A stretch of 35,515 bases of DNA from positions 1 through 35,515 of the IMG/VR virus record IMGVR_UViG_3300042564_003199. One strand, 5' to 3'. Origin of the DNA: a virus. Positions 2,775 through 14,308 of this stretch are shown here, piece by piece. Numbering within the stretch: the stretch's first letter is position 1; the number at the start of each line of letters is the position of its first letter. The translations under genes were made by a program, and so were the position numbers. The notes beneath the pieces are model-generated. The model was not told the origin of the DNA. It made no database searches and saw only the letters and a list, made by a program, of their open reading frames with translations.

Positions 2775-4199
2775 ATGGAAGACGATGATATTAATTCTAA
2801 GTACGCTAAGGTAAAAGAGAAACTAGACATAGTTAGTCCTAGTTATTGTATCGCTAAATGGAAAGAAGTAACTATTCACCTAGATACTGGTAGAACACAT
2901 AGTTGTCACCATCCTAGCACACATAAAATACCAGTTGAAGAAATTTTAAAAAATCCCAGTGCTTTACATAACACTGAGTTTAAAAAACAACAACGAAAAT
3001 TGATGCTTGAGGGACAGCGCCCTGAAGAGTGTGACTATTGCTGGAGAGTAGAAGATAGTAATAAAGAAGGTAGTATTACTACCTATAGTGATAGAGTAGT
3101 TAAAAGTGCAAACAGCTGGGCAAGAAATTGTACTCCTGAAATTTTAAAGAACGGCTGGGACGATAATACCTATCCTACAAGTGTAGAAGTTAATTTTGGA
3201 AGTACTTGTAATTTCAAATGTAGCTATTGCAATCCAGAAATAAGCAGTCAATGGATGGGCGAAGTTAAACAGCATGGTGGATATCAACTAACTGATCGAA
3301 TATACAATGATATTGTTTGGTTAGAAAAAACTGATCGTATACCTATACCTAACAAAGATTATAATCCTTACATTGATGCATTTTGGCAATGGTGGCCTGA
3401 CCTAGTAGACAATTTAAAAATATTTAGAATTACTGGCGGAGAACCATTACTAAACAAAAATACATTTGAAGTTTTAGATTATTTAATAGCTAATCCTAAG
3501 CCCAATATGCGTTTATCAATTAACAGCAATCTCGGAGTACCAAAAACTATTATTAAACAATTCATTGATAAAATGAAAATTATTCAAGAAAAGAAAGCTG
3601 TTAAAGAATTTGTTTTGTATACCAGTTGCGAGGCTTACGGGGCTAAGGCAGAGTATATTAGGCACGGATTAAATTATCAAGAATGGTTAACTAACTGTGA
3701 ATCTATTATTAGAGATATTCCAGATAGTAGATTAAGTCTCATGTGTACTTACAATATTTTAAGTATAACATCATTCAAAGATATGTTGAAAGACATTGTA
3801 GTTTTGAAAAACAAATACACACAACAACCAGAACGCCCACATCCTGTTAGTGTTGATATTCCATATCTTCGACATCCTAATTTTATGGCTGCATGGATTA
3901 TGCCTCAAGAATGGTTACAACATATAGAAGATACAGTATCATGGATGTATAGTAATCTTCAACAAACATATTGGCCTCCGCTTTGTGGCAAAGGATTCTT
4001 TGATTATGAAATCAAAAAGATGGAACGTGTATATATTGTTTGTAAAGAAGCAATGAATGATCCTAGTAAACAAGATGAGATAGAGCAAGGCAGACGCAAC
4101 TTAATTGCATTTGTTAAAGAACATGATAAAAGACGTGGTACTGATTTTTTAGCCACATTCCCAGAATTAGAGGATTTTTACAGGAAATATTCCCAATGA
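2775..4199 (+). CDS. Radical SAM protein with N-terminal twitch/SPASM-like domain (first of a tandem pair)
   Basis: Predicted S-adenosylmethionine radical enzyme, 474 aa. The core cluster motif is Cys145-x3-Cys149-x2-Cys152 (CNFKCSYC), with ITGGEPLL near residue 220 for SAM binding. Before the core, residues 20-92 hold Cys25, Cys44, Cys86 and Cys89 in the pattern C..W...G..HSCHHP...HN...R..ML.G.RP.EC.YCW, as in twitch/SPASM auxiliary-cluster domains, here at the N-terminus. Proteins annotated as twitch-domain radical SAM from phages show this order. The reaction and substrate are unknown; SPASM/twitch relatives often modify peptides. The start ATG follows AAGGAT. The stop overlaps the next start by 4 nt. 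It is 32-36% AT-richer to the eye than the fibre genes only in a qualitative sense; no measurement was made. Confidence 0.85.
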   Translation: MEDDDINSKYAKVKEKLDIVSPSYCIAKWKEVTIHLDTGRTHSCHHPSTHKIPVEEILKNPSALHNTEFKKQQRKLMLEGQRPEECDYCWRVEDSNKEGSITTYSDRVVKSANSWARNCTPEILKNGWDDNTYPTSVEVNFGSTCNFKCSYCNPEISSQWMGEVKQHGGYQLTDRIYNDIVWLEKTDRIPIPNKDYNPYIDAFWQWWPDLVDNLKIFRITGGEPLLNKNTFEVLDYLIANPKPNMRLSINSNLGVPKTIIKQFIDKMKIIQEKKAVKEFVLYTSCEAYGAKAEYIRHGLNYQEWLTNCESIIRDIPDSRLSLMCTYNILSITSFKDMLKDIVVLKNKYTQQPERPHPVSVDIPYLRHPNFMAAWIMPQEWLQHIEDTVSWMYSNLQQTYWPPLCGKGFFDYEIKKMERVYIVCKEAMNDPSKQDEIEQGRRNLIAFVKEHDKRRGTDFLATFPELEDFYRKYSQ

Positions 4200-5578
4200 T
4201 TGATTATAATAAAAAACTAAGAGACATTAAAGTAACTATTGATAAAGTAGGCAAAGGCTTTTGCATGGCCAAATGGTATCACGTTAGTATGCACTTACAC
4301 AAAGGTATGAACCATAGTTGTTATCATCCTGCTCCTAAAGTTGTAAGTTTAGAAGAAATTCAAGCTAATCCTAGCTCGTTACATAATAGCGAATGGAAGA
4401 AAGAACAACGAAAATTAATGCTAGAGGGAGGCAGACCTAGCGAATGCAGCTATTGCTGGGATATCGAAGACTTGCCGGGCGATCATATTAGTGATAGACC
4501 TATTCGCAGTGCAGAATCATGGGCTGTTCCGTTGATTGAAGAAACCACTAAACTTGATTGGCGAGCGGATGTAGATCCGCGATATTTAGAAGTTAACTTT
4601 GGATATGAGTGCCAATTGAAATGTAGCTATTGTACTACTACTATTAGCAGTGCATGGTATCAAGAAATCAAAAAACATGGAATGTATCCATTAGACAATC
4701 CGCAAAACAAATATCAATATAGCATTGAAGAACAAGGTACTACATTTTATAAAAAAGAGGAAGACAATCCATACATTGATGCATTCTGGAAATGGCTACC
4801 CGGTGTCTATAATAATTTACATACTTTCAGAGTCACTGGAGGAGAGCCGTTATTAAGTAGTAATGTATTTAAAGTATTAGAATATATTGATAATAATCCT
4901 CATCCTAATCTCACATTTGCTATTAACAGTAATATGTGTGTACCCGAAAGGAACATTAATAAATTTGTCGACGTTGCGTTTAAATTAAAATCAGAAAATA
5001 AAATTAAACAACTAGGAATGTTTACCAGTGTGGATACATGGGGACCGCAGTGTGAGTATATTAGAAATGGCTTTGACATGGAGAAATGGATATCAAACAT
5101 AGACCTGTATCTTACTAAAGTACCCGGAACCCATGTATCTTTTATGATTACATTTTGTTTCATGAGTATTCCTAGCTTTAAACTCTTATTGGATAAGATT
5201 TTAGAACTGCGCAGGAAATATAATGTTAACTATCCTAGAATTGAATTTGATACTCCGTATCTTATTGAGCCTCCACATTTATCTGCTCAGCTTGCTACCG
5301 ACAAACACATTGCACATTTAAATGAAACTCTTGCGTATATGAAGACGCAAGTTCGAGACGGTTATGAACCGATGTATTTCACGCAGACTGAGTATGAAAA
5401 ATTTCAACGTGTTATTCGCTGGATCGAACAAAACAGATATCAAGGTGATATGATGAAGGTAAATCGTAAGGATTTTGTTAAGTTTGTTGACGAGCACGAT
5501 CTTCGTCGAGGAACAAATTTCTTAGAAACATTTCCTGAGCTGTCCAAAGACTACTGGGAATGGAAAAATTACGAATAA
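4196..5578 (+). CDS. Radical SAM protein with N-terminal twitch/SPASM-like domain (second of a tandem pair)
   Basis: Paralogue of the preceding gene along its whole length, 460 aa. The radical SAM motif is Cys139-x3-Cys143-x2-Cys146 (CQLKCSYC), with VTGGEPLL near residue 215. The N-terminal auxiliary Cys set is Cys23, Cys42, Cys84 and Cys87. Shared blocks include NP.SLHN.E.KK.QRKLMLEG, NPYIDAFW.W and HD.RRGT.FL.TFPEL near the C-terminus. The ATGA overlap with the first copy suggests co-translation at a fixed ratio, compatible with a heterodimer or a two-step modification. Substrate specificity is not visible. The last third, around YLRHPN/YLIEPP, differs most between copies and may hold the substrate-binding differences. 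Confidence 0.85.
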   Translation: MIDYNKKLRDIKVTIDKVGKGFCMAKWYHVSMHLHKGMNHSCYHPAPKVVSLEEIQANPSSLHNSEWKKEQRKLMLEGGRPSECSYCWDIEDLPGDHISDRPIRSAESWAVPLIEETTKLDWRADVDPRYLEVNFGYECQLKCSYCTTTISSAWYQEIKKHGMYPLDNPQNKYQYSIEEQGTTFYKKEEDNPYIDAFWKWLPGVYNNLHTFRVTGGEPLLSSNVFKVLEYIDNNPHPNLTFAINSNMCVPERNINKFVDVAFKLKSENKIKQLGMFTSVDTWGPQCEYIRNGFDMEKWISNIDLYLTKVPGTHVSFMITFCFMSIPSFKLLLDKILELRRKYNVNYPRIEFDTPYLIEPPHLSAQLATDKHIAHLNETLAYMKTQVRDGYEPMYFTQTEYEKFQRVIRWIEQNRYQGDMMKVNRKDFVKFVDEHDLRRGTNFLETFPELSKDYWEWKNYE

Positions 5579-5579
5579 G

Positions 5580-5597
5580 ATAGTTCTAAACTATTTT
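5580..5597. terminator. Possible hairpin between convergent genes
   Basis: ATAGTT-CTA-AACTAT forms a 6-bp AT-rich stem with a 3-base loop, followed by TTTT on the + strand. It sits in the 12-base gap between the stops of the second and third radical SAM genes. The stem is weak, so termination is only possible. Confidence 0.35.
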
Positions 5598-6802
5598 ACA
5601 TATAACTGGTTTATTGCTGCATTTTTACCACAAATTTCTGCACAATAAGCCATTTTTCCTTCACCAATTGTAGACTTACTCCATGAGTCTGCAAAGACTC
5701 TATCAAGAATTCCAGATTGTATTATTTCTTCCATGTTATAGTTGTTTAGATCTAATTTATCCTTTACAGCATTTATTTTAGATTTTAGTTGATGGTCGAC
5801 AAAATAATCAATACTTGCGTCGTACCTCGTACCAATATAACAGCACGGAAATACTATGCCCTGCGCATTTACGTACACTTCCGAAAATGGTGTAGAATCC
5901 CAATACATATGGCTCTTACAACTAATTTCTTTAGACTCAAGTTCTTTAGTATAAGTTTGGCCAAGTTCATGTATACCGTTGCTATCTTTAAAAGATTCTA
6001 AACGAGTTTTAATTCTTGGAGAAAACTTTAACTCTTTAACTGTTTCGTAAGTTGTTAAATCAATATCGTCATATTTTTTCTCAACATATTCCGATCCTTC
6101 AGATGACATTAGATATTCTTGCTGCTTTGGAGGATATAGATTATATTGCAACTCACCCTGTTTATTATAAACTGGTCGCGGTACTAGTTCTTTAGTATTG
6201 GGGAAATCAAAACCCATTGCTCTCTTAGGAGCAAACTCTTTAAATCCCATAGACTTAGATAGTTCTCTAGCTAACTCAACTTGATGCTCGTTGTGTCCAA
6301 AAATTAAATATTCCCAATATGCGTTTCCGCCAGCTTTAATAAATGCTGTAACATTACGCATTAACATGTCCCAGTCAACTTTTCTTCTATATAGATGGTT
6401 TGTATCTTCTAATCCGTCAATAGAAAATATCAGTTTCATATTTCTACTTTGAAATAATTCTCCCATCTTAGTCCAAAATTTTTCATCTCTAAGACCGCCA
6501 TTTGTATGTACACGAATTACACAATTCTTATTAATAGATTTAACATGCGAGAATATCTCATAACAATCTTTTGCCATGATTGGATCTCCCATTGTACCAC
6601 ACACATGCAGATGTACTAGATCTTTTAGTACATTTACAGAGAAATATTTTTTAAAATCATCTAACGATATTGAATTTAATTTTAAATCAGGGCGAACTAG
6701 GTCAGTATTTTCATAATACCTAAGACAAAAAGGACATGCAGCATTGCAGTGAGTTGACAACTCAATATGAATTTGCCTAAGTTTAAATTTTTCCCAGCTC
6801 AT
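5591..6802 (-). CDS. Radical SAM/SPASM-like protein (third, convergent)
   Basis: Radical SAM enzyme, 403 aa, on the opposite strand to the tandem pair. The core motif is Cys19-x3-Cys23-x2-Cys26 (CNAACPFC) right at the N-terminus, with GTMGDPIM (about 69-76) in the GGEP-loop position and FSIDG at about 126-130. A C-terminal auxiliary domain contains Cys295, the adjacent pair Cys320-Cys321 (VFPCCYIG), Cys387 and Cys391, in SPASM-like order. So it has the common architecture, unlike its two neighbours. The start follows AAGG on the minus strand and lies 21 nt from a CTAAATA motif. Its substrate is unknown; a peptide or the products of the neighbouring glycan genes are possible. Confidence 0.85.
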   Translation of the reverse strand: MSWEKFKLRQIHIELSTHCNAACPFCLRYYENTDLVRPDLKLNSISLDDFKKYFSVNVLKDLVHLHVCGTMGDPIMAKDCYEIFSHVKSINKNCVIRVHTNGGLRDEKFWTKMGELFQSRNMKLIFSIDGLEDTNHLYRRKVDWDMLMRNVTAFIKAGGNAYWEYLIFGHNEHQVELARELSKSMGFKEFAPKRAMGFDFPNTKELVPRPVYNKQGELQYNLYPPKQQEYLMSSEGSEYVEKKYDDIDLTTYETVKELKFSPRIKTRLESFKDSNGIHELGQTYTKELESKEISCKSHMYWDSTPFSEVYVNAQGIVFPCCYIGTRYDASIDYFVDHQLKSKINAVKDKLDLNNYNMEEIIQSGILDRVFADSWSKSTIGEGKMAYCAEICGKNAAINQLYVK

Positions 6803-6823
6803 AGTGGACCTTATTAAAAATAT

Positions 6824-6830
6824 TATTTAG
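6824..6830 (-). promoter_or_regulatory. Late-type promoter motif (CTAAATA) for the convergent radical SAM gene
   Basis: CTAAATA on the minus strand has its core ending 21 nt before the ATG at 6802. It is divergent from the exact TATAAATA at 6843, giving back-to-back late-type motifs in a 70-base intergenic region. Confidence 0.4.
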
Positions 6831-6842
6831 TAGTTGCTCGAT

Positions 6843-6850
6843 TATAAATA
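6843..6850 (+). promoter_or_regulatory. Exact T4 late promoter motif TATAAATA
   Basis: TATAAATA followed by CTCC, 22 nt before the ATG at 6873. It is the only recognisable promoter for the overlapping five-gene operon to 11025, so those genes are predicted to be expressed late. Confidence 0.6.
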
Positions 6851-6872
6851 CTCCAACATTGAATATATTAAT

Positions 6873-7409
6873 ATGACTGACTCTTCCATGCCTCGATTAG
6901 CTATTTGTTTATACGGGGACGATAACTCTGAATTAGAATTAGTTAAATCTATATGTATACAACGATATTCAAAATTTGATATTACATTTTTTGAAAAAAT
7001 TCATCAAGACAAATTTAAAGCTATGTGGCTTTGCTCGTTTGATAAAGATTGTTATGAATTCGATACAAAATTATTATTTCATATATGTATAGCTATTGAT
7101 ATTAAAGAGTACAGACTTTTAGATTTTACAAACATACCATATAGAATTGAGGATAAGGTATACTACACTAGTGGATTTTACAAATTTGAGAGACATTATA
7201 CTGGAGCAAGTCCTTGTATATTTTTTGCAAACTCAATACTTTTTAGTCGAGCCTGTGAATTTTATTTAAATAACATACCACTAGATGCGTTAGTTGAAGA
7301 TTCTCTAGAAGTAAGATTTTTCTTTCATTTAAAAAGTTACAATATAATAACCGAATGTATTAATTATGAGAATCGCTCTTTGTTTAAGCGGACAGCCCCG
7401 AACTCTTAA
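6873..7409 (+). CDS. Hypothetical protein related at its N-terminus to glycosyltransferase-like neighbours, 178 aa
   Basis: Function not recognised. The start of the conserved part, PRLAICLYGDD, resembles RIALCLSGQP and NLAILIAGEY at the N-termini of two downstream genes, so this may be a short or shrunken member of the same glycosyltransferase-like family. The rest alternates aromatic strands and helices and lacks the YD-x5-RxD segment of the longer neighbours, so it may be inactive or accessory. ATG 6873 was chosen because it gives the same distance to TATAAATA as elsewhere; ATG 6888 (five codons later) would fit the homology equally well. The reading frame also runs 5' to 6834 without an ATG. 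The last 44 bases overlap the next gene. Confidence 0.6.
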   Translation: MTDSSMPRLAICLYGDDNSELELVKSICIQRYSKFDITFFEKIHQDKFKAMWLCSFDKDCYEFDTKLLFHICIAIDIKEYRLLDFTNIPYRIEDKVYYTSGFYKFERHYTGASPCIFFANSILFSRACEFYLNNIPLDALVEDSLEVRFFFHLKSYNIITECINYENRSLFKRTAPNS

Positions 7410-8127
7410 GTACGCTGCACCGTCTATTTTAAATTTCTTTTCAGATACCCATACCTATGACTATTTTTGTCATGCGTGGGACTATAACAACTATAAGAAA
7501 AAATCTGACGGTATTTCTTGGACGCCAAATGAACTAATAGACAAAGATGAGTTAACTAACGACTTAGCAATATTCAATCCTAAATCAATACAAATACACG
7601 GCAAATGCGACCTACCTAGAACATATAATTATTGGAGTTCATTGTTTTACAGTGCGTGGTGTGCTAATCATCTTAAAAAGAAATATGAAATTGAAAATGA
7701 CTTTAGGTATGATTTAGTAATCAAATTAAGGTATGATTTAGTGTTTAATCCAGGTCGTAGATTTAAATTAAATCATCCTCTTGAAAATGATTTGGAAATT
7801 TATTGTATGCACCATGAAAGAATGCCTTATGAATATATGAGACCCAATTTTAGCGATATTATATATTACGGGAGTTCTAGAGCAATGGACGGGTTATCGG
7901 ATGTTTATAAATTTCTAAATTCTAACAGATTTAGAATGGATAATTATGAAGGACTAGGACCAGGGACCTGGCTCACAAAATATAGCCAGTCTATTAATCT
8001 TCGTTCAACAACTGTTACAACCTTAGAAGAAACTATCTATAGAGACGATAGTATTCCTGCACATTATCAAGACGATTATGCGATAATAGCAGACTTTCAC
8101 CGAGCAGTATATTTAAATTTAAAATGA
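7366..8127 (+). CDS. Glycosyltransferase-like protein, 253 aa
   Basis: Opens with MRIALCLSGQPRTLKYAAPS, a beta-strand and Gly loop typical of nucleotide-sugar-binding folds, and carries FYSAWCANHLKKKYE followed by RYDLVIKLRYDLVFNPG (residues about 114-130). The YD-x6-RxD arrangement occupies the place of a DxD-type motif in related capsule and surface polysaccharide proteins. The assignment to a glycosyltransferase-like family rests on this pattern only. The same pattern recurs in the N-terminal half of the fusion gene at 8864. It overlaps the previous gene by 44 nt and the next by 4 nt (ATGA). There is no Shine-Dalgarno sequence of note, so coupling is likely. Confidence 0.6.
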   Translation: MRIALCLSGQPRTLKYAAPSILNFFSDTHTYDYFCHAWDYNNYKKKSDGISWTPNELIDKDELTNDLAIFNPKSIQIHGKCDLPRTYNYWSSLFYSAWCANHLKKKYEIENDFRYDLVIKLRYDLVFNPGRRFKLNHPLENDLEIYCMHHERMPYEYMRPNFSDIIYYGSSRAMDGLSDVYKFLNSNRFRMDNYEGLGPGTWLTKYSQSINLRSTTVTTLEETIYRDDSIPAHYQDDYAIIADFHRAVYLNLK

Positions 8128-8867
8128 TAAAATGTTTTTATGTTACCGGAGATTCTTTTGCCTTTGGTGAAGAATTAGGGATTGACAATCCTGATGTTAA
8201 AATAGCCCACAAGTACGAATTTACTGAATATCACAGACAGAATTGCTATTCTGGAATTATAGCATCTAAATTAAAAATACCTGAATACATTAATTCAGCA
8301 GCCCAGGGCGGGTCTAATGAGAGAGCCTATCGATATTTAATTACCGATATTCCTAAATTACTTAACACATATCAACCTCACGAAATTTTTGTTAATGTTA
8401 GCCTAAGCCATATTGCACGTCGAGAATTTTATACACCATCTAACCACACCTGGGCATTGTATATGGCATCTCACGAACCCCCAAAGTCAGATAAAATGTA
8501 TCACATGTTATGGAGTTCGTTAACAAAAGACTTTAACGGAGATTTTGGATACTGTACTTTTGATATAATGATTGAACTAGCTATTCAAAATTTTCTTATG
8601 GTTAACAAAATACCATACTTGCTAACGTCATCAATGGGAAATGCATTTGAAAAAGAGTTACGTCAAAGATATATCGATAAAGTAGTACTTGATCAAATTT
8701 ATCCAGCTAGGTCTTATACAGACTTATCATTCCATGTGTTTAGCCACGCAATGGGGTGCAAAGTTGGCCCAAATCATCATCCGTTAGAAGATGGACATAG
8801 AGAATGGGCTGCACATTTACTTGACCATATACATAGAAAAACTTTGCTAGACAATAGAGACTTATGA
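8124..8867 (+). CDS. SGNH/GDSL-type hydrolase-like protein, 247 aa
   Basis: Block I is YVTGDSFAFG with the putative nucleophile Ser11. Block II is AAQGGSNERAYR with Gly62/63 and Asn65. A strand with VNVSLSHIARREF follows in block III position. The C-terminus holds HHPLEDGHREWAAHL, the HP...GH pattern of block V with candidate catalytic His219. The usual Asp three residues before that His is replaced (Pro216 by my count), so activity may rely on another acid or be altered. Family members remove acyl groups or act on polysaccharides and lipids. Lying inside a glycan-like operon, a role as sugar O-acyl esterase or transferase is plausible. It starts in an ATGA overlap and ends in another. Confidence 0.7.
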   Translation: MIKCFYVTGDSFAFGEELGIDNPDVKIAHKYEFTEYHRQNCYSGIIASKLKIPEYINSAAQGGSNERAYRYLITDIPKLLNTYQPHEIFVNVSLSHIARREFYTPSNHTWALYMASHEPPKSDKMYHMLWSSLTKDFNGDFGYCTFDIMIELAIQNFLMVNKIPYLLTSSMGNAFEKELRQRYIDKVVLDQIYPARSYTDLSFHVFSHAMGCKVGPNHHPLEDGHREWAAHLLDHIHRKTLLDNRDL

Positions 8868-10330
8868 ATTTAGCTATTTTAATTGCCGGTGAATACCGTG
8901 AATTTGACATAGCAGTAAAATCTTGGAATTTTTTAGATTTTGCCCCTGATGTCTATTTTTCAACTTGGAGCACTACATCTGAAATTAATCCTAAATTAGG
9001 AATAGACATAACTGAAGAAGTAACAGCAGAAAGAATTACTCAATACATACCTCAATGTGAAACGTTAATTGAGTCTCCTAACGACAGCTTACATTCAAAT
9101 CAAAAAATGATGTATAAATGGATTAGTGCTATCAAGATGATGATACAGTCTAAAAAAACTTACGACGCCGTTGTGTTGTTGAGACCAGATCTATTTGTAA
9201 ATTGTGATTTAGAAGAATTTATTAAATTTGTAAATATCATTAATAGTAACAACATCTATGGGCATACTCATAATGCACCTATTAATAATCATATGCCTGA
9301 TTTAATAATAATGGGTACGCAAGATGCCATTACTAAATTATTAGAACTACCTATCAAAGATTTAGAAACAACTGAGAAAGTAAACATACATTGGTGGTTA
9401 GCAGTTAATTTTAATAAGTTGTATCAAGCAGTTAACAATCTAACTTTCTTAAAAGGACACGGTGCATCTTTAGTTAGAAGCAACGCTCGGAATCTACAAG
9501 TAAAAACATTAGATACAATTTATGAATCAGCAAATGACTGGTATCAAGCTAGGCATAATGCAGGAACTACTGTAAAAGAATTTACTGGATTTTCAGGTAG
9601 TAAAGTAACATTAGTTAAAAACTTATTCCCAATTAAATCAACTAATAGTTACTACCTAATCAAAAAACAAGGCAACATAGAAAGAAATTATGAAAAAATG
9701 ACTGTCCTTATTGAGAAAGGATTTAAATTGCCAAAGATTTATTATAAATCTAATGACGTATTAGATATGGAATTTATTTCCGGTTACGACATGATATCTT
9801 TCCTGCAGCGACATAGTCCTTCTGAATTGTTAGATTTTATTTGCAATACTATTGATCAGTTTAAAGCCGAGTCAATAATAGAAGATTATACTAACATATA
9901 TGAAACACATTTAGAATCATTATCAAATGATAAATTTTTGCCTTTTCATATTTCAGAACTAATACAAAAACTACCAACTAATATCAAATCATCACTGTGT
10001 CATGGGGATTTTACTTTAGAAAATCTCATTTACCGAGACGGGGAATTTTATATGATTGATCCTTCATCTGGAGTCTATAATTCTTGGATATTTGATATCG
10101 CAAAGCTTCGACAAGATTTAGATGGCAAGTGGTTTCTTAGAAAAACTACAAATAAGGACAGTTATAATGTTGAACTTAACTTTATCAAGACATCATTAGA
10201 ACACAAGTACCCTGAAGCGTTTAACGATAACATATACATATTGATGCTGTTAAGAGTTTACAAATATGTAAACCCATCTGATTTAGAGCATAAATTTATT
10301 TTAGAGGAAATAAAAAGACTATGGAAATAA
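8864..10330 (+). CDS. Fusion: glycosyltransferase-like domain plus APH-type kinase domain, 488 aa
   Basis: Residues 1 to about 225 match the neighbouring glycosyltransferase-like protein in layout: NLAILIAGEYREF at the start, then MYKWISAIKMMI and YDAVVLLRPDLF (100-111). Residues about 240-488 form an aminoglycoside/choline-kinase-like fold: LCHGDFTLENLIY has the catalytic Asp382 and Asn387 of the HGDxxxxN motif, followed by the metal-binding FYMIDPSS (Asp399) and SWIFDIAKLRQD. An N-lobe Lys lies in YYLIKKQGN (about 263-270). So a sugar, choline-like or other small alcohol is probably phosphorylated. It overlaps the upstream gene by 4 nt and the downstream nucleotidyltransferase by 10 nt. Kinase plus nucleotidyltransferase recalls LicA/LicC and AmgK/MurU pairs. 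Confidence 0.75.
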   Translation: MNLAILIAGEYREFDIAVKSWNFLDFAPDVYFSTWSTTSEINPKLGIDITEEVTAERITQYIPQCETLIESPNDSLHSNQKMMYKWISAIKMMIQSKKTYDAVVLLRPDLFVNCDLEEFIKFVNIINSNNIYGHTHNAPINNHMPDLIIMGTQDAITKLLELPIKDLETTEKVNIHWWLAVNFNKLYQAVNNLTFLKGHGASLVRSNARNLQVKTLDTIYESANDWYQARHNAGTTVKEFTGFSGSKVTLVKNLFPIKSTNSYYLIKKQGNIERNYEKMTVLIEKGFKLPKIYYKSNDVLDMEFISGYDMISFLQRHSPSELLDFICNTIDQFKAESIIEDYTNIYETHLESLSNDKFLPFHISELIQKLPTNIKSSLCHGDFTLENLIYRDGEFYMIDPSSGVYNSWIFDIAKLRQDLDGKWFLRKTTNKDSYNVELNFIKTSLEHKYPEAFNDNIYILMLLRVYKYVNPSDLEHKFILEEIKRLWK

Positions 10331-11025
10331 TTGTACCAGCAGCCGGACTATCTTCTAGATTTCCGAATACTAAACCAAAATACCTATTGCATGATTACAC
10401 AGGTAAAAGTATGCTCTACAGAGCAGTTGAACCATTTATTGGCCGGCATCGTATAACTGTTGGAATCTTACAGGAACATAATGAAAAATATAATGTAGTT
10501 GAAAGTATAAAAAAAGAGTTCAATGAACAAATAGATATTGTTATCATTCCCGTTTTAACTTCGGGTCCAGCCGAAACGGTATTTACTATATTATGTAATG
10601 CTAATATTGACTTAAACAATGAAATTTTTGTTAAAGATTGTGATAGTTATTTTAATCATGACAAAAGTTATGGCAATTATATATGTGTGTCAAATATAGA
10701 AAATTATAATACAATAAACAAGATTCATAATAAAAGTTTTATAATTAAGAGTGATCAAGGTATTGTCACTAAGATAGTAGAAAAACAGGTAGTATCTAAC
10801 ATGTTCTGTGTAGGTGGATATAAATTTTCATTAGGATACGATTTTAAAAAAGCCTATGAAGAAATAAGATTTGGAAATAATCAAGAAGTATTCATTAGCC
10901 ATGTGATTCAACAATTAATGTTAACTGGGCATGTGTTTCAAATCAAAGAAGTAGTTGACTACGCAGATGTTGGAACTTTGGATGATTGGGTTCAATATAA
11001 TCAGCCACACGGGTTCCAATTTTAA
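10321..11025 (+). CDS. Sugar-phosphate/choline-phosphate nucleotidyltransferase-like protein, 234 aa
   Basis: The N-terminal signature VPAAGLSSRFPNTKPKYLL (residues 5-23) is the nucleotide-binding G-x-SRF...K loop of NTP_transferase enzymes, which couple a phosphorylated sugar or alcohol to an NTP with release of pyrophosphate. GPAETV (82-87) and the DxD-like VKDCDSYF (Asp106, Asp108) fit base recognition and metal binding. VVDYADVGTLDDW near the C-terminus matches the second metal site region. The size (234 aa) agrees with LicC/MurU/RmlA-core proteins without extra domains. It overlaps the kinase fusion gene by 10 nt behind GAGGAA, so the two steps, phosphorylation and nucleotidyl transfer, are probably sequential. 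The nucleotide and substrate cannot be read from the sequence. Confidence 0.75.
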   Translation: MEIIVPAAGLSSRFPNTKPKYLLHDYTGKSMLYRAVEPFIGRHRITVGILQEHNEKYNVVESIKKEFNEQIDIVIIPVLTSGPAETVFTILCNANIDLNNEIFVKDCDSYFNHDKSYGNYICVSNIENYNTINKIHNKSFIIKSDQGIVTKIVEKQVVSNMFCVGGYKFSLGYDFKKAYEEIRFGNNQEVFISHVIQQLMLTGHVFQIKEVVDYADVGTLDDWVQYNQPHGFQF

Positions 11026-11059: not shown

Positions 11060-11088
11060 TTGACAGGTAAGTAAAATGACTGTATAAT
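11060..11088 (+). promoter_or_regulatory. Host-type sigma-70 promoter (TTGACA-N17-TATAAT)
   Basis: TTGACA at 11060-11065, a 17-base spacer, and TATAAT at 11083-11088: a perfect consensus. It drives the 393-aa gene from a leader of about 25 nt with AAAGGAG before the ATG at 11121. Expression by unmodified host polymerase, and so early, is expected. Confidence 0.85.
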
Positions 11089-11120: not shown

Positions 11121-12302
11121 ATGGCAACTAAACTCAAAAAAGAATCTATTGCAATCCGTGAAAAAGCCAAACGTGACTACAGTCCAAGTTGGGTAGGTTG
11201 CGAAGCTTGGGATGAGAATCAGTTTCTGCGTTACTTCCACAGTGCCATGAAGTACTACCGCATGGAGTCCTCTAGTAAAGAGCTCAAAGCCAAAGTTATT
11301 GACTGGATGGGCAAGAATGGTTACGACAAAAAGACCATTGCATCTTTTAAGAAAACCAAAGACAATCGTTGCTCGCTGACTGTGGGCTCAATTGCTGCCT
11401 GCTTGCTAAAAGGTATGCAGAGCACACGAGTAGACTTTAATCAAGGACGTGACACTGCCACTTGGTTGGGTGCGGAAATTGCTAAGATTATTGATGAAGG
11501 TAAGAATGACATCGATGAAGATGCTGTCAAAGCGGCAGAGGCCGACAAGCCTGCAGTTTATACACCTAGTATCCAAGAACGTACTAGAGATGCCGCTTTG
11601 TTGATGACAGAAGAAATCGAAGATGCATACGAAAGCTACCAAACTGATCCAGAAGCATTTGATCCAAAAGCATTTAAGATGCTGAACTTGCTCAAAGGCA
11701 AAGGCGCTAAGGCTGCTCATGCACGTATCATCCGTGACTTCTATGCAGGCGATCTTGCCGAGCTGAACGAGCTTGCCAGCGGTGAGGGTGATGAACAGTT
11801 GAAAGAAGGCTACAAGCATCGTACCCGTAAGCAAATCAAGAACTTTATTGCGTTCCTGCAAGAGATTGAATCGGCTTGCAACATGCTTATGCAAGAAGCC
11901 AAAGTTAACAAGAAGCCCCGCAAGACTAAGGCAGTTAGCAAGGACAAGTTGATTGCTAAACTCAAGTTCAAGAAGACTGATGAGCCGTTAAAACTGGTCA
12001 GTGTTAATCCTGCTGACATTATTGGTGCTCAGGAACTGTGGGTGTTTAACAGTAAGACTCGCAAGTTGGGCAAGTATGTTGCAGAGGAGTTTAAAGAACT
12101 TGGAGTTAAAGGTACTACAATCACAGGGTTTAGTGAGATGAAGTCAGTGCAAAAGACTCTGCGTAAGCCTGTAGAACAGTTAGCAGCCTTCAAAGCAGCC
12201 GGAAAAGTAGTTCTACGCAAGTTCCTTGAAGACATCAACGCTGTAGATACTAAGATGAACGGTCGTTTAAACGAAGAAACGATCCTACTTAAAGTAGCAT
12301 AA
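11121..12302 (+). CDS. Conserved-looking hypothetical protein, 393 aa, early promoter
   Basis: Not recognised with confidence. The protein is soluble, mostly helical and charged. Residues about 1-115 hold a compact region with WVGCEAWDENQFLRYFHSAMKYY. Residues 140-290 are helical and acidic/basic (EDAYESYQTDPEAFDPKAF and similar). A Lys-rich linker (NKKPRKTKAVSKDKLIAKLKF, about 272-292) leads to a beta-rich C-terminal domain with ELWVFNSKTRKLGKY and a Lys-rich end. The basic linker and two-domain layout would fit nucleic-acid binding, but that is a guess. It has a perfect sigma-70 promoter and a strong ribosome site, unlike its late-type neighbours, so it may act early in takeover of the host. 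Codon usage looks less AT-rich than in the block before it. Confidence 0.75.
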   Translation: MATKLKKESIAIREKAKRDYSPSWVGCEAWDENQFLRYFHSAMKYYRMESSSKELKAKVIDWMGKNGYDKKTIASFKKTKDNRCSLTVGSIAACLLKGMQSTRVDFNQGRDTATWLGAEIAKIIDEGKNDIDEDAVKAAEADKPAVYTPSIQERTRDAALLMTEEIEDAYESYQTDPEAFDPKAFKMLNLLKGKGAKAAHARIIRDFYAGDLAELNELASGEGDEQLKEGYKHRTRKQIKNFIAFLQEIESACNMLMQEAKVNKKPRKTKAVSKDKLIAKLKFKKTDEPLKLVSVNPADIIGAQELWVFNSKTRKLGKYVAEEFKELGVKGTTITGFSEMKSVQKTLRKPVEQLAAFKAAGKVVLRKFLEDINAVDTKMNGRLNEETILLKVA

Positions 12303-13687: not shown

Positions 13688-13715
13688 TTGACATACAGTA
13701 GCAATACTGTATAAT
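13688..13715 (+). promoter_or_regulatory. Host-type sigma-70 promoter (TTGACA-N16-TATAAT)
   Basis: TTGACA at 13688-13693, a 16-base spacer and TATAAT at 13710-13715. It starts only two bases after the fibre gene's stop. The predicted leader of about 80 nt contains a weak ACCGG/CCGGT pairing and then AAAGGAG before the ATG at 13802. Confidence 0.8.
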
Positions 13716-13801: not shown

Positions 13802-14308
13802 ATGGCAAATCTACAACCCGTACTTTATAAGTACACTTCGACAAAAGAATATCACGATGCATTTCCCTGTGCTTACAGGCAATGGAGAAGTGATAGTCAC
13901 TGTAATCTAATTCACGGCTATTCATTTAGTATGAAATTTTACTTTGGCACCAACGACCTGGATGTCCGCAATTGGGCGGCTGACTATGGTGGTTTGAAAG
14001 AACTAAAGAAAACCCTAGAAGATCAATTTGATCATACACTTATTGTAGCACAAGATGATCCTCAGCTTGACGTATTCAAAATGCTACAAGAAAAGAATAT
14101 GGCTAAGATTGTTATCCTGCCTGCACTAGGTTGTGAAGCATTGAGTGATATGCTTTACAAATATGTGAATGGTGTTTACATTCCAGACATGTGGGGTCCA
14201 GGAGAAGCCAAACGTCTTTGGTGTTATCGTGTAGAAGTACGTGAAACCCAAGCCAATATGGCATTCCGTGAAGGACATCGTGAATGGAATGAAAACTTAC
14301 TAGATTAA
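13802..14308 (+). CDS. 6-pyruvoyl-tetrahydropterin synthase/QueD-like protein, 168 aa
   Basis: Member of the tunnelling-fold 6-PTPS/QueD family, which in cells converts dihydroneopterin triphosphate to 6-carboxy- or 6-pyruvoyl-tetrahydropterin. Seen: FPCAYRQW (21-28), SDSHCNLIHGYSF (30-42) with the family Cys (Cys34) and His38, DYGGLKELKK, and QFDHTLI with His78. In classical enzymes zinc is held by a His in the first motif and both His of HGH. Here the first is Tyr25 and HGH reads HGY (Tyr40), so only His38 is kept, unless His33 serves as a substitute. GCEALSDM matches the distal Glu region. Activity may therefore be altered. It has its own sigma-70 promoter and strong ribosome site. No FolE, QueE or QueC partner is in the window. 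Confidence 0.8.
   Translation: MANLQPVLYKYTSTKEYHDAFPCAYRQWRSDSHCNLIHGYSFSMKFYFGTNDLDVRNWAADYGGLKELKKTLEDQFDHTLIVAQDDPQLDVFKMLQEKNMAKIVILPALGCEALSDMLYKYVNGVYIPDMWGPGEAKRLWCYRVEVRETQANMAFREGHREWNENLLD

Follow-up and report, generated by a model that had tools for sequence, protein, structure and literature searches.

A conserved kinase–nucleotidyltransferase pair within a phage gene cassette that may activate and transfer a sugar-like molecule

AmgK is a kinase of the APH family. In Pseudomonas, the MupP–AmgK–MurU route serves the anabolic recycling of N-acetylmuramic acid, with adjacent amgK and murU genes and a HAD phosphatase in the pathway (PMC5371407). Pelagimyophages, which are T4-like aquatic phages, carry glycosyltransferase and radical SAM cassettes together with tail fibres in a variable host recognition cluster (PMC7029224), and mycobacteriophages encode glycosyltransferases that decorate the capsid and tail tube (Freeman et al. 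2023, as described in PMC12363180). Here we compare with these systems, and with the LicA/LicC pair, a cassette of five overlapping genes from an aquatic phage, IMG/VR virus record IMGVR_UViG_3300042564_003199. The whole record of 35,515 bases was analysed (hereafter, the window); it is likely to be part of a larger genome.

Conservation of the cassette and its gene order

The five genes run in the same direction from 6834 (or from the ATG at 6873) to 11025, with overlaps of 44, 4, 4 and 10 nt, as the original prediction had described (Table 1). They encode a short paralogue of the second product, a glycosyltransferase-like (GT-like) protein, an SGNH-like protein, a fusion of a GT-A-like half with an APH-type kinase half, and a nucleotidyltransferase. 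Because all five have homologues and their order is kept elsewhere, they are real genes and not chance open reading frames (ORFs).

The kinase–nucleotidyltransferase pair and the gene order are conserved across phages. Scanning the viral collection with single proteins brought few matches, and alignment-based profiles were used instead. In IMG/VR, the nucleotidyltransferase profile gave at least 311 confirmed stretches, of which 80 loci were read, and the kinase profile gave at least 366, from which reading of loci yielded 76 clear kinases; these two samples overlap, contain near-copies and were ranked by similarity to the window. The kinase gene lies directly upstream of the nucleotidyltransferase gene at exactly −10 nt, as in the window, in 76 of 84 nucleotidyltransferase loci (loci from other searches included). 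Read from the kinase side, a nucleotidyltransferase comes next in 71/76 loci, 66 of them at −10 nt, and a GT is directly upstream in 68/76. When only non-redundant kinases were counted (<62% identity), the −10 overlap was kept in 20 of 22 and the upstream GT in 11 of 22. One candidate, L004, was rejected as a spurious match inside a giant ORF.

Larger parts of the cassette recur as well, as a neighbourhood search showed. Four loci (L155–L158) share the window order of radical SAM, radical SAM, short paralogue, GT, SGNH and GT-like genes, and L159 has a close version; an extra gene precedes the last GT-like gene in two of them, a second SGNH in L157 and a radical SAM gene in L158. In L155 and L157 the fusion partner of the GT-like half is, in place of the kinase, an SGNH-like domain, read by eye from GCSFTEG and HPG motifs. 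The GT–kinase fusion itself is found as a 477-amino-acid (aa) protein in L228, L229 and L230, three contigs that are perhaps of one phage species; a nucleotidyltransferase free of HAD follows it, and the second gene before it encodes a radical SAM protein. An origin of the window fusion as a frameshift or assembly artefact was rejected because of this recurrence. Among named phages, the sole tblastn match to the fusion was Marine virus AG-345-E15. Nucleotidyltransferase–kinase fusions were also read from the sequences of L002 and L007. As the fusions of these domains are interchangeable, we suggest that the domains act in one common pathway.

Separately, a 724-aa chain with nucleotidyltransferase, HAD and kinase matches is encoded at 6297–8471 of L142 (Prochlorococcus AG-402-C09), near a separate pair of kinase and nucleotidyltransferase–HAD genes.

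The kinase profile also retrieved 67 bacterial loci. A clear kinase was present in 47 of these, with an adjacent nucleotidyltransferase in 37, from Gastranaerophilales, Alphaproteobacteria, Lachnospiraceae, Planctomycetota, Nitrospirota and others. When several bacterial loci were read by eye, the neighbours were those of polysaccharide-type clusters, namely glycosyltransferases, epimerases and membrane proteins. With occurrences in the hundreds among viruses and in the dozens among bacteria, the logic of kinase plus nucleotidyltransferase, as first predicted for the window, has strong support. In a maximum-likelihood tree, the window kinase and 22 viral kinases form one clade (support 100/100); the viral kinases of L002, L220 and four loci with RuBisCO-like genes fall elsewhere. 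Polytopic membrane proteins, counted by a simple hydropathy scan in flanks read over 4–8 kb, make up 42 of 564 ORFs in the bacterial loci, versus 1 of 951 and 0 of 963 in the viral loci.

The RuBisCO-like proteins are an observation of their own. They occur in glycan-type phage clusters at L005:12022-13140 (Pfam RuBisCO_large, E 3e-34) and L006:10031-11167, and in 22 of 71 GT loci, and the next gene is often that of a distant APH-like kinase.

Folds and active sites of the encoded proteins

The fold classes named in the original prediction (glycosyltransferase, SGNH, APH and nucleotidyltransferase) were all recovered; neither outcome that it had named as refuting, proteins outside these folds or a gene order found nowhere else, was observed. 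In the kinase half of the fusion, the catalytic loop HGDFTLEN (pattern HxDxxxxN) and the ID metal motif, as MID, lie at residues 380 and 397 of the whole protein and the N-lobe lysine, as KK, at 267, and the Pfam APH model scores 24.5 bits (cut-off 23.2); by these sequence features, the half is assigned as an APH-type kinase. For the nucleotidyltransferase, the nearest PDB match of the family profile was 4evw (E 7e-26), with matches also to 5z09, a dual sugar-1-phosphate nucleotidyltransferase (E 4e-8), and to GlmU (E 1e-7). Key family residues are conserved (G9, R13, P19, K20, D108, E154, K155 and G218), and on this homology and active-site signature we assign the product as a predicted sugar-1-phosphate-type nucleotidyltransferase. 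No MurU or LicC chain was among the 60 PDB matches listed, and kinship with either is possible all the same. The window protein is without the C-terminal HAD domain that is present in 63 of the 68 relatives scored, which suggests that a dephosphorylation step is either not needed in this phage or done by another enzyme.

The GT profile gave no significant match to PDB sequences and the SGNH profile nothing significant, its top weak matches being CE2 esterases; structure models were therefore made. The AlphaFold2 model of the GT protein, from a 31-sequence alignment, has a mean predicted local distance difference test score (pLDDT) of 89.5 and a predicted template modelling score (pTM) of 0.90. 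Aligned with VIA-align, it matches BoGT6a (4ayl) with Z 12.7 and a root mean square deviation of 3.7 across 189 aligned residues, Chlorella virus hyaluronan synthase with Z 12.5 and the PBCV-1 capsid glycosyltransferase with Z 11.4, while Foldseek gave E 1.1e-6 to the GT-A fold. Judged by the model, the protein has a GT-A fold. At the usual place of the DxD motif it carries an invariant R122-x-D124 and no canonical DxD. BoGT6a carries NxN at this place. Metal-independent GT6 members such as BoGT6a are likewise without DxD (title of entry 4ayl). The short paralogue is without the R-x-D motif, and its gene stands directly before the GT gene also in L155–L159. Among viral models, the nearest to the GT protein are uncharacterised phage and giant-virus proteins, the latter from Catovirus, Fadolivirus, Tupanvirus and a chlorovirus (E 1e-15 to 1e-11, ∼20% identity).

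The SGNH protein matches Pfam DUF6071 (E 2.6e-14), and its model (pLDDT 93.8) aligns with Z 15.0 to TesA and ∼13 to CE2 carbohydrate esterases, consistent with an SGNH fold. Gly9, Ser11 and His219 are invariant in 30 sequences, giving the serine of the GDS motif and a C-terminal histidine; the position three residues before the histidine is Pro216, and no catalytic aspartate is conserved. CE2 esterases also work with a Ser–His dyad. A tblastn search of named phages with the SGNH protein gave no match. An SGNH gene is present in 53 of 71 GT loci, which hold up to eight GT genes each, and tandem arrays of SGNH-like and GT-like genes within one phage locus were seen in L005, L006, L007 and L160–L220.

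Surroundings of the cassette

Many other genes of the window encode tail fibre, baseplate and structural proteins, and tail fibres adjoin the cassette; in L005, L171 and L194 the cassette comes close after tail-fibre-like C-termini. The region 2775–11025 is AT-rich, with a GC fraction of 0.325 versus ∼0.42 across most of the remaining window, as expected of an exchangeable cassette. This region includes three radical SAM genes before the cassette (Table 1), and the L158 homologue of the third lies inside the run, between the SGNH gene and the second GT-like gene. The twitch family NF033640, represented in the window by two tandem copies, is also found in 48/71 related GT loci. A defence system was considered and rejected: PADLOC matched the three radical SAM proteins only, each weakly and to viperin, and none of the five cassette genes. 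Elsewhere in the window, a QueD-like 6-pyruvoyl-tetrahydropterin synthase gene lies at 13802–14308 (PHROG E 3e-36), and positions 2–583 encode a 193-aa protein with five hydrophobic segments and no PHROG match.

The single motif that the original prediction placed before the five genes, TATAAATA, is there, but it is uninformative, with two copies in the window versus 4.4 expected; the longer TATAAATACT occurs once versus 0.24 expected (P 0.23). Since TATAAATA is at chance level, a late promoter at the cassette was rejected and the label of a late-type operon is not supported. Perfect TTGACA-N16/17-TATAAT promoters are present at 11060–11088 and 13688–13715 (two seen versus 0.06 expected, P 0.003), and these two sigma70-type promoters precede the flanking genes at 11121 and 13802, not cassette genes.

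Table 1. Features of the cassette and its upstream region in the window
Feature	Position	Strand	Remarks
Predicted twitch-domain radical SAM protein (NF033640)	2775–4199	+	E 1e-93; upstream of short paralogue, GT and SGNH genes in relatives
Second predicted twitch-domain radical SAM protein (NF033640)	4196–5578	+	E 2e-88
Third predicted radical SAM protein, other subfamily	5591–6802	−	Weak SPASM similarity
TATAAATA motif	6843–6850	+	Upstream of the five-gene run; chance level, no reliable promoter signal
Short paralogue, degenerate GT-A-like	6873–7409	+	Frame open from TTG 6834; first ATG 6873; 191 aa
GT-A-fold glycosyltransferase-like protein (phrog_13607)	7366–8127	+	253 aa; AlphaFold2 model and fold search
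SGNH-fold hydrolase/esterase-like protein (Pfam DUF6071)	8124–8867	+	247 aa; Pfam and model
GT-like/APH-kinase fusion, whole gene	8864–10330	+	488 aa
Fusion, N-terminal GT-A-like domain	8864–9568	+	Divergent homologue of 7366–8127; fusion also in L228–L230
Fusion, C-terminal APH/RIO-like small-molecule kinase domain, predicted	9569–10330	+	Catalytic motifs intact; viral clade in tree
Predicted sugar-1-phosphate-type nucleotidyltransferase (phrog_3980)	10321–11025	+	234 aa; profile matches; no C-terminal HAD domain

Proposed function and comparison with known systems

By analogy, a kinase plus a nucleotidyltransferase would follow the logic of nucleoside diphosphate (NDP)-linked donor synthesis, and GT-A enzymes use such donors. 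Our leading reading, held with slightly more doubt than confidence, is that the cassette activates and transfers a sugar or sugar-like molecule, with tail fibres or other virion proteins of the phage itself as the most likely acceptor. We infer the reactions, their order and timing, the substrate and the acceptor as follows. The APH-type kinase domain would phosphorylate the molecule, the anomeric position being the probable site, and the nucleotidyltransferase would convert the phosphate to an NDP-linked donor. From this, the kinase-fused GT-A-like domain and the separate GT-A enzyme would transfer the residue to the acceptor, while the SGNH protein may acylate or deacylate the product. A target on the virion is favoured because the cassette lies among tail-fibre genes and because the phage clusters are nearly free of polytopic membrane proteins needed for export, such as flippases. 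A broader version of this proposal is doubtful but worth stating: GT-A, APH-type kinase and nucleotidyltransferase, often with HAD, might form an unrecognised and widespread phage module. Its product would be a dedicated NDP-linked donor that the host does not supply, used to glycosylate tail fibres or other parts of the virion, and in the GT–kinase fusion activation would be coupled to transfer.

Several points weigh against virion glycosylation. A second large set of phages keeps the kinase–nucleotidyltransferase pair near replication genes (DnaB-like helicase) with no identifiable tail fibres nearby, which weakens the link to the virion, and the scarcity of membrane proteins is not decisive, as phages could use host flippases. 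The same enzymes might instead modify the surface of the infected host (lipopolysaccharide, O-chain or capsule) so that other phages are kept out, a role that the authors of PMC7029224 prefer for the GT genes of the pelagimyophage host recognition cluster. Homologous kinase–nucleotidyltransferase pairs in bacterial polysaccharide-type loci fit such a role; on the other side, no flippase, polymerase or initiating membrane transferase was found in the phage-cluster flanks read, and a surface change would benefit a lytic phage only briefly. On balance we regard a host-surface acceptor as unlikely, if not strongly so. Transfer itself is also in some doubt, as GT activity is not assured for a protein with R-x-D where most GT-A enzymes have DxD.

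The remaining contrary point concerns the substrate: among PDB entries with a known metabolic substrate, the kinase profile matches best the choline kinase LicA (4r77, E 4.5e-4), not a sugar kinase. The activated residue could then be the phosphate of an amino alcohol or polyol (choline, ethanolamine or glycerol), decorating a surface or the virion in the manner of LicA/LicC, and GDPD-like genes, named by eye, accompany 28 of 71 related clusters. Tyr197 of LicA is a residue of the choline pocket (PMC4364537). In our by-eye reading of the aligned motif it falls on Ser/Thr/Asp in the present kinase family (ID-x-x-Ser/Thr/Asp), the other pocket residues lying outside the aligned part, and a choline-type substrate is less likely because this tyrosine is not conserved. 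With a nucleotidyltransferase closest to sugar-1-phosphate enzymes, no LicC among the 60 PDB matches listed, and GT-A enzymes that imply glycosyl donors, we consider such a residue distinctly improbable. Least probable of these readings is a donor for glycosylating modified phage DNA as protection from restriction. Hypermodification of DNA by virus-encoded GTs is known (Pyle et al. 2024, as cited in PMC12619734), the window has the QueD-like gene at 13802–14308, and some relatives lie near a replicative helicase; however, the surroundings of the cassette showed no identifiable base-hydroxymethylating enzyme, and the number and variety of GTs (up to eight per locus) with SGNH arrays fit a glycan better.

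With the overlap of the putative donor-making pair fixed at 10 nt across viral contigs that number in the hundreds, many phages may produce an activated building block themselves and not just borrow host sugars. If tail fibres are decorated, sequence-based reading of host range and receptor recognition in aquatic phages would change. The proposal is testable, with two small enzymes predicted to be soluble and a product detectable by assay.

No description of a conserved kinase–nucleotidyltransferase(–HAD)–GT module, or of a GT–kinase fusion, was found in the open-access literature, so the original prediction of an undescribed system holds, as far as found, for the apparently undescribed conserved module, whereas GT/radical SAM cassettes beside tail fibres and phage virion glycosylation were already known. 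As in the pelagimyophage host recognition cluster, GT and radical SAM genes lie beside tail fibres in the window. That cluster lies between VrlC and the neck gene gp14; here, the gene at 11121–12302 has a homologue just before the neck and sheath genes of PA5oct, and VrlC was not identified. The main text of PMC7029224 makes no mention of nucleotidyltransferases, and neither the kinase–nucleotidyltransferase core nor the GT–kinase fusion is described there. The mycobacteriophages share phage-encoded glycosyltransferases, whereas the acceptor is known there and the account in PMC12363180, at least in its passage on them, mentions no donor-making kinase or nucleotidyltransferase. The bacterial pairs and pairs with HAD (for example L088, L103, L107 and L114) have a homologous kinase directly before a homologous nucleotidyltransferase, but multi-pass membrane proteins are present in the bacterial loci, and the phage kinases form their own well-supported clade.

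In the AmgK/MurU/MupP system, an anomeric sugar kinase gene lies beside a GlmU-like nucleotidyltransferase gene; here the genes for a predicted APH-type kinase and nucleotidyltransferase are likewise adjacent, and most viral relatives comprise kinase, nucleotidyltransferase and fused HAD. The window differs in being without HAD, the listed PDB matches include no MurU, and the phage cassette adjoins GTs and tail fibres, not peptidoglycan recycling. LicA/LicC also combines a kinase with a nucleotidyltransferase, and the phage kinase matches LicA weakly in sequence; this system is set apart by its choline-pocket tyrosine, by the sugar-1-phosphate enzymes nearest to the phage nucleotidyltransferase and by the GT-A-like domain fused to the phage kinase. 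We claim membership in neither system; by analogy, the cassette would work like AmgK/MurU(/MupP) or LicA/LicC at the level of logic.

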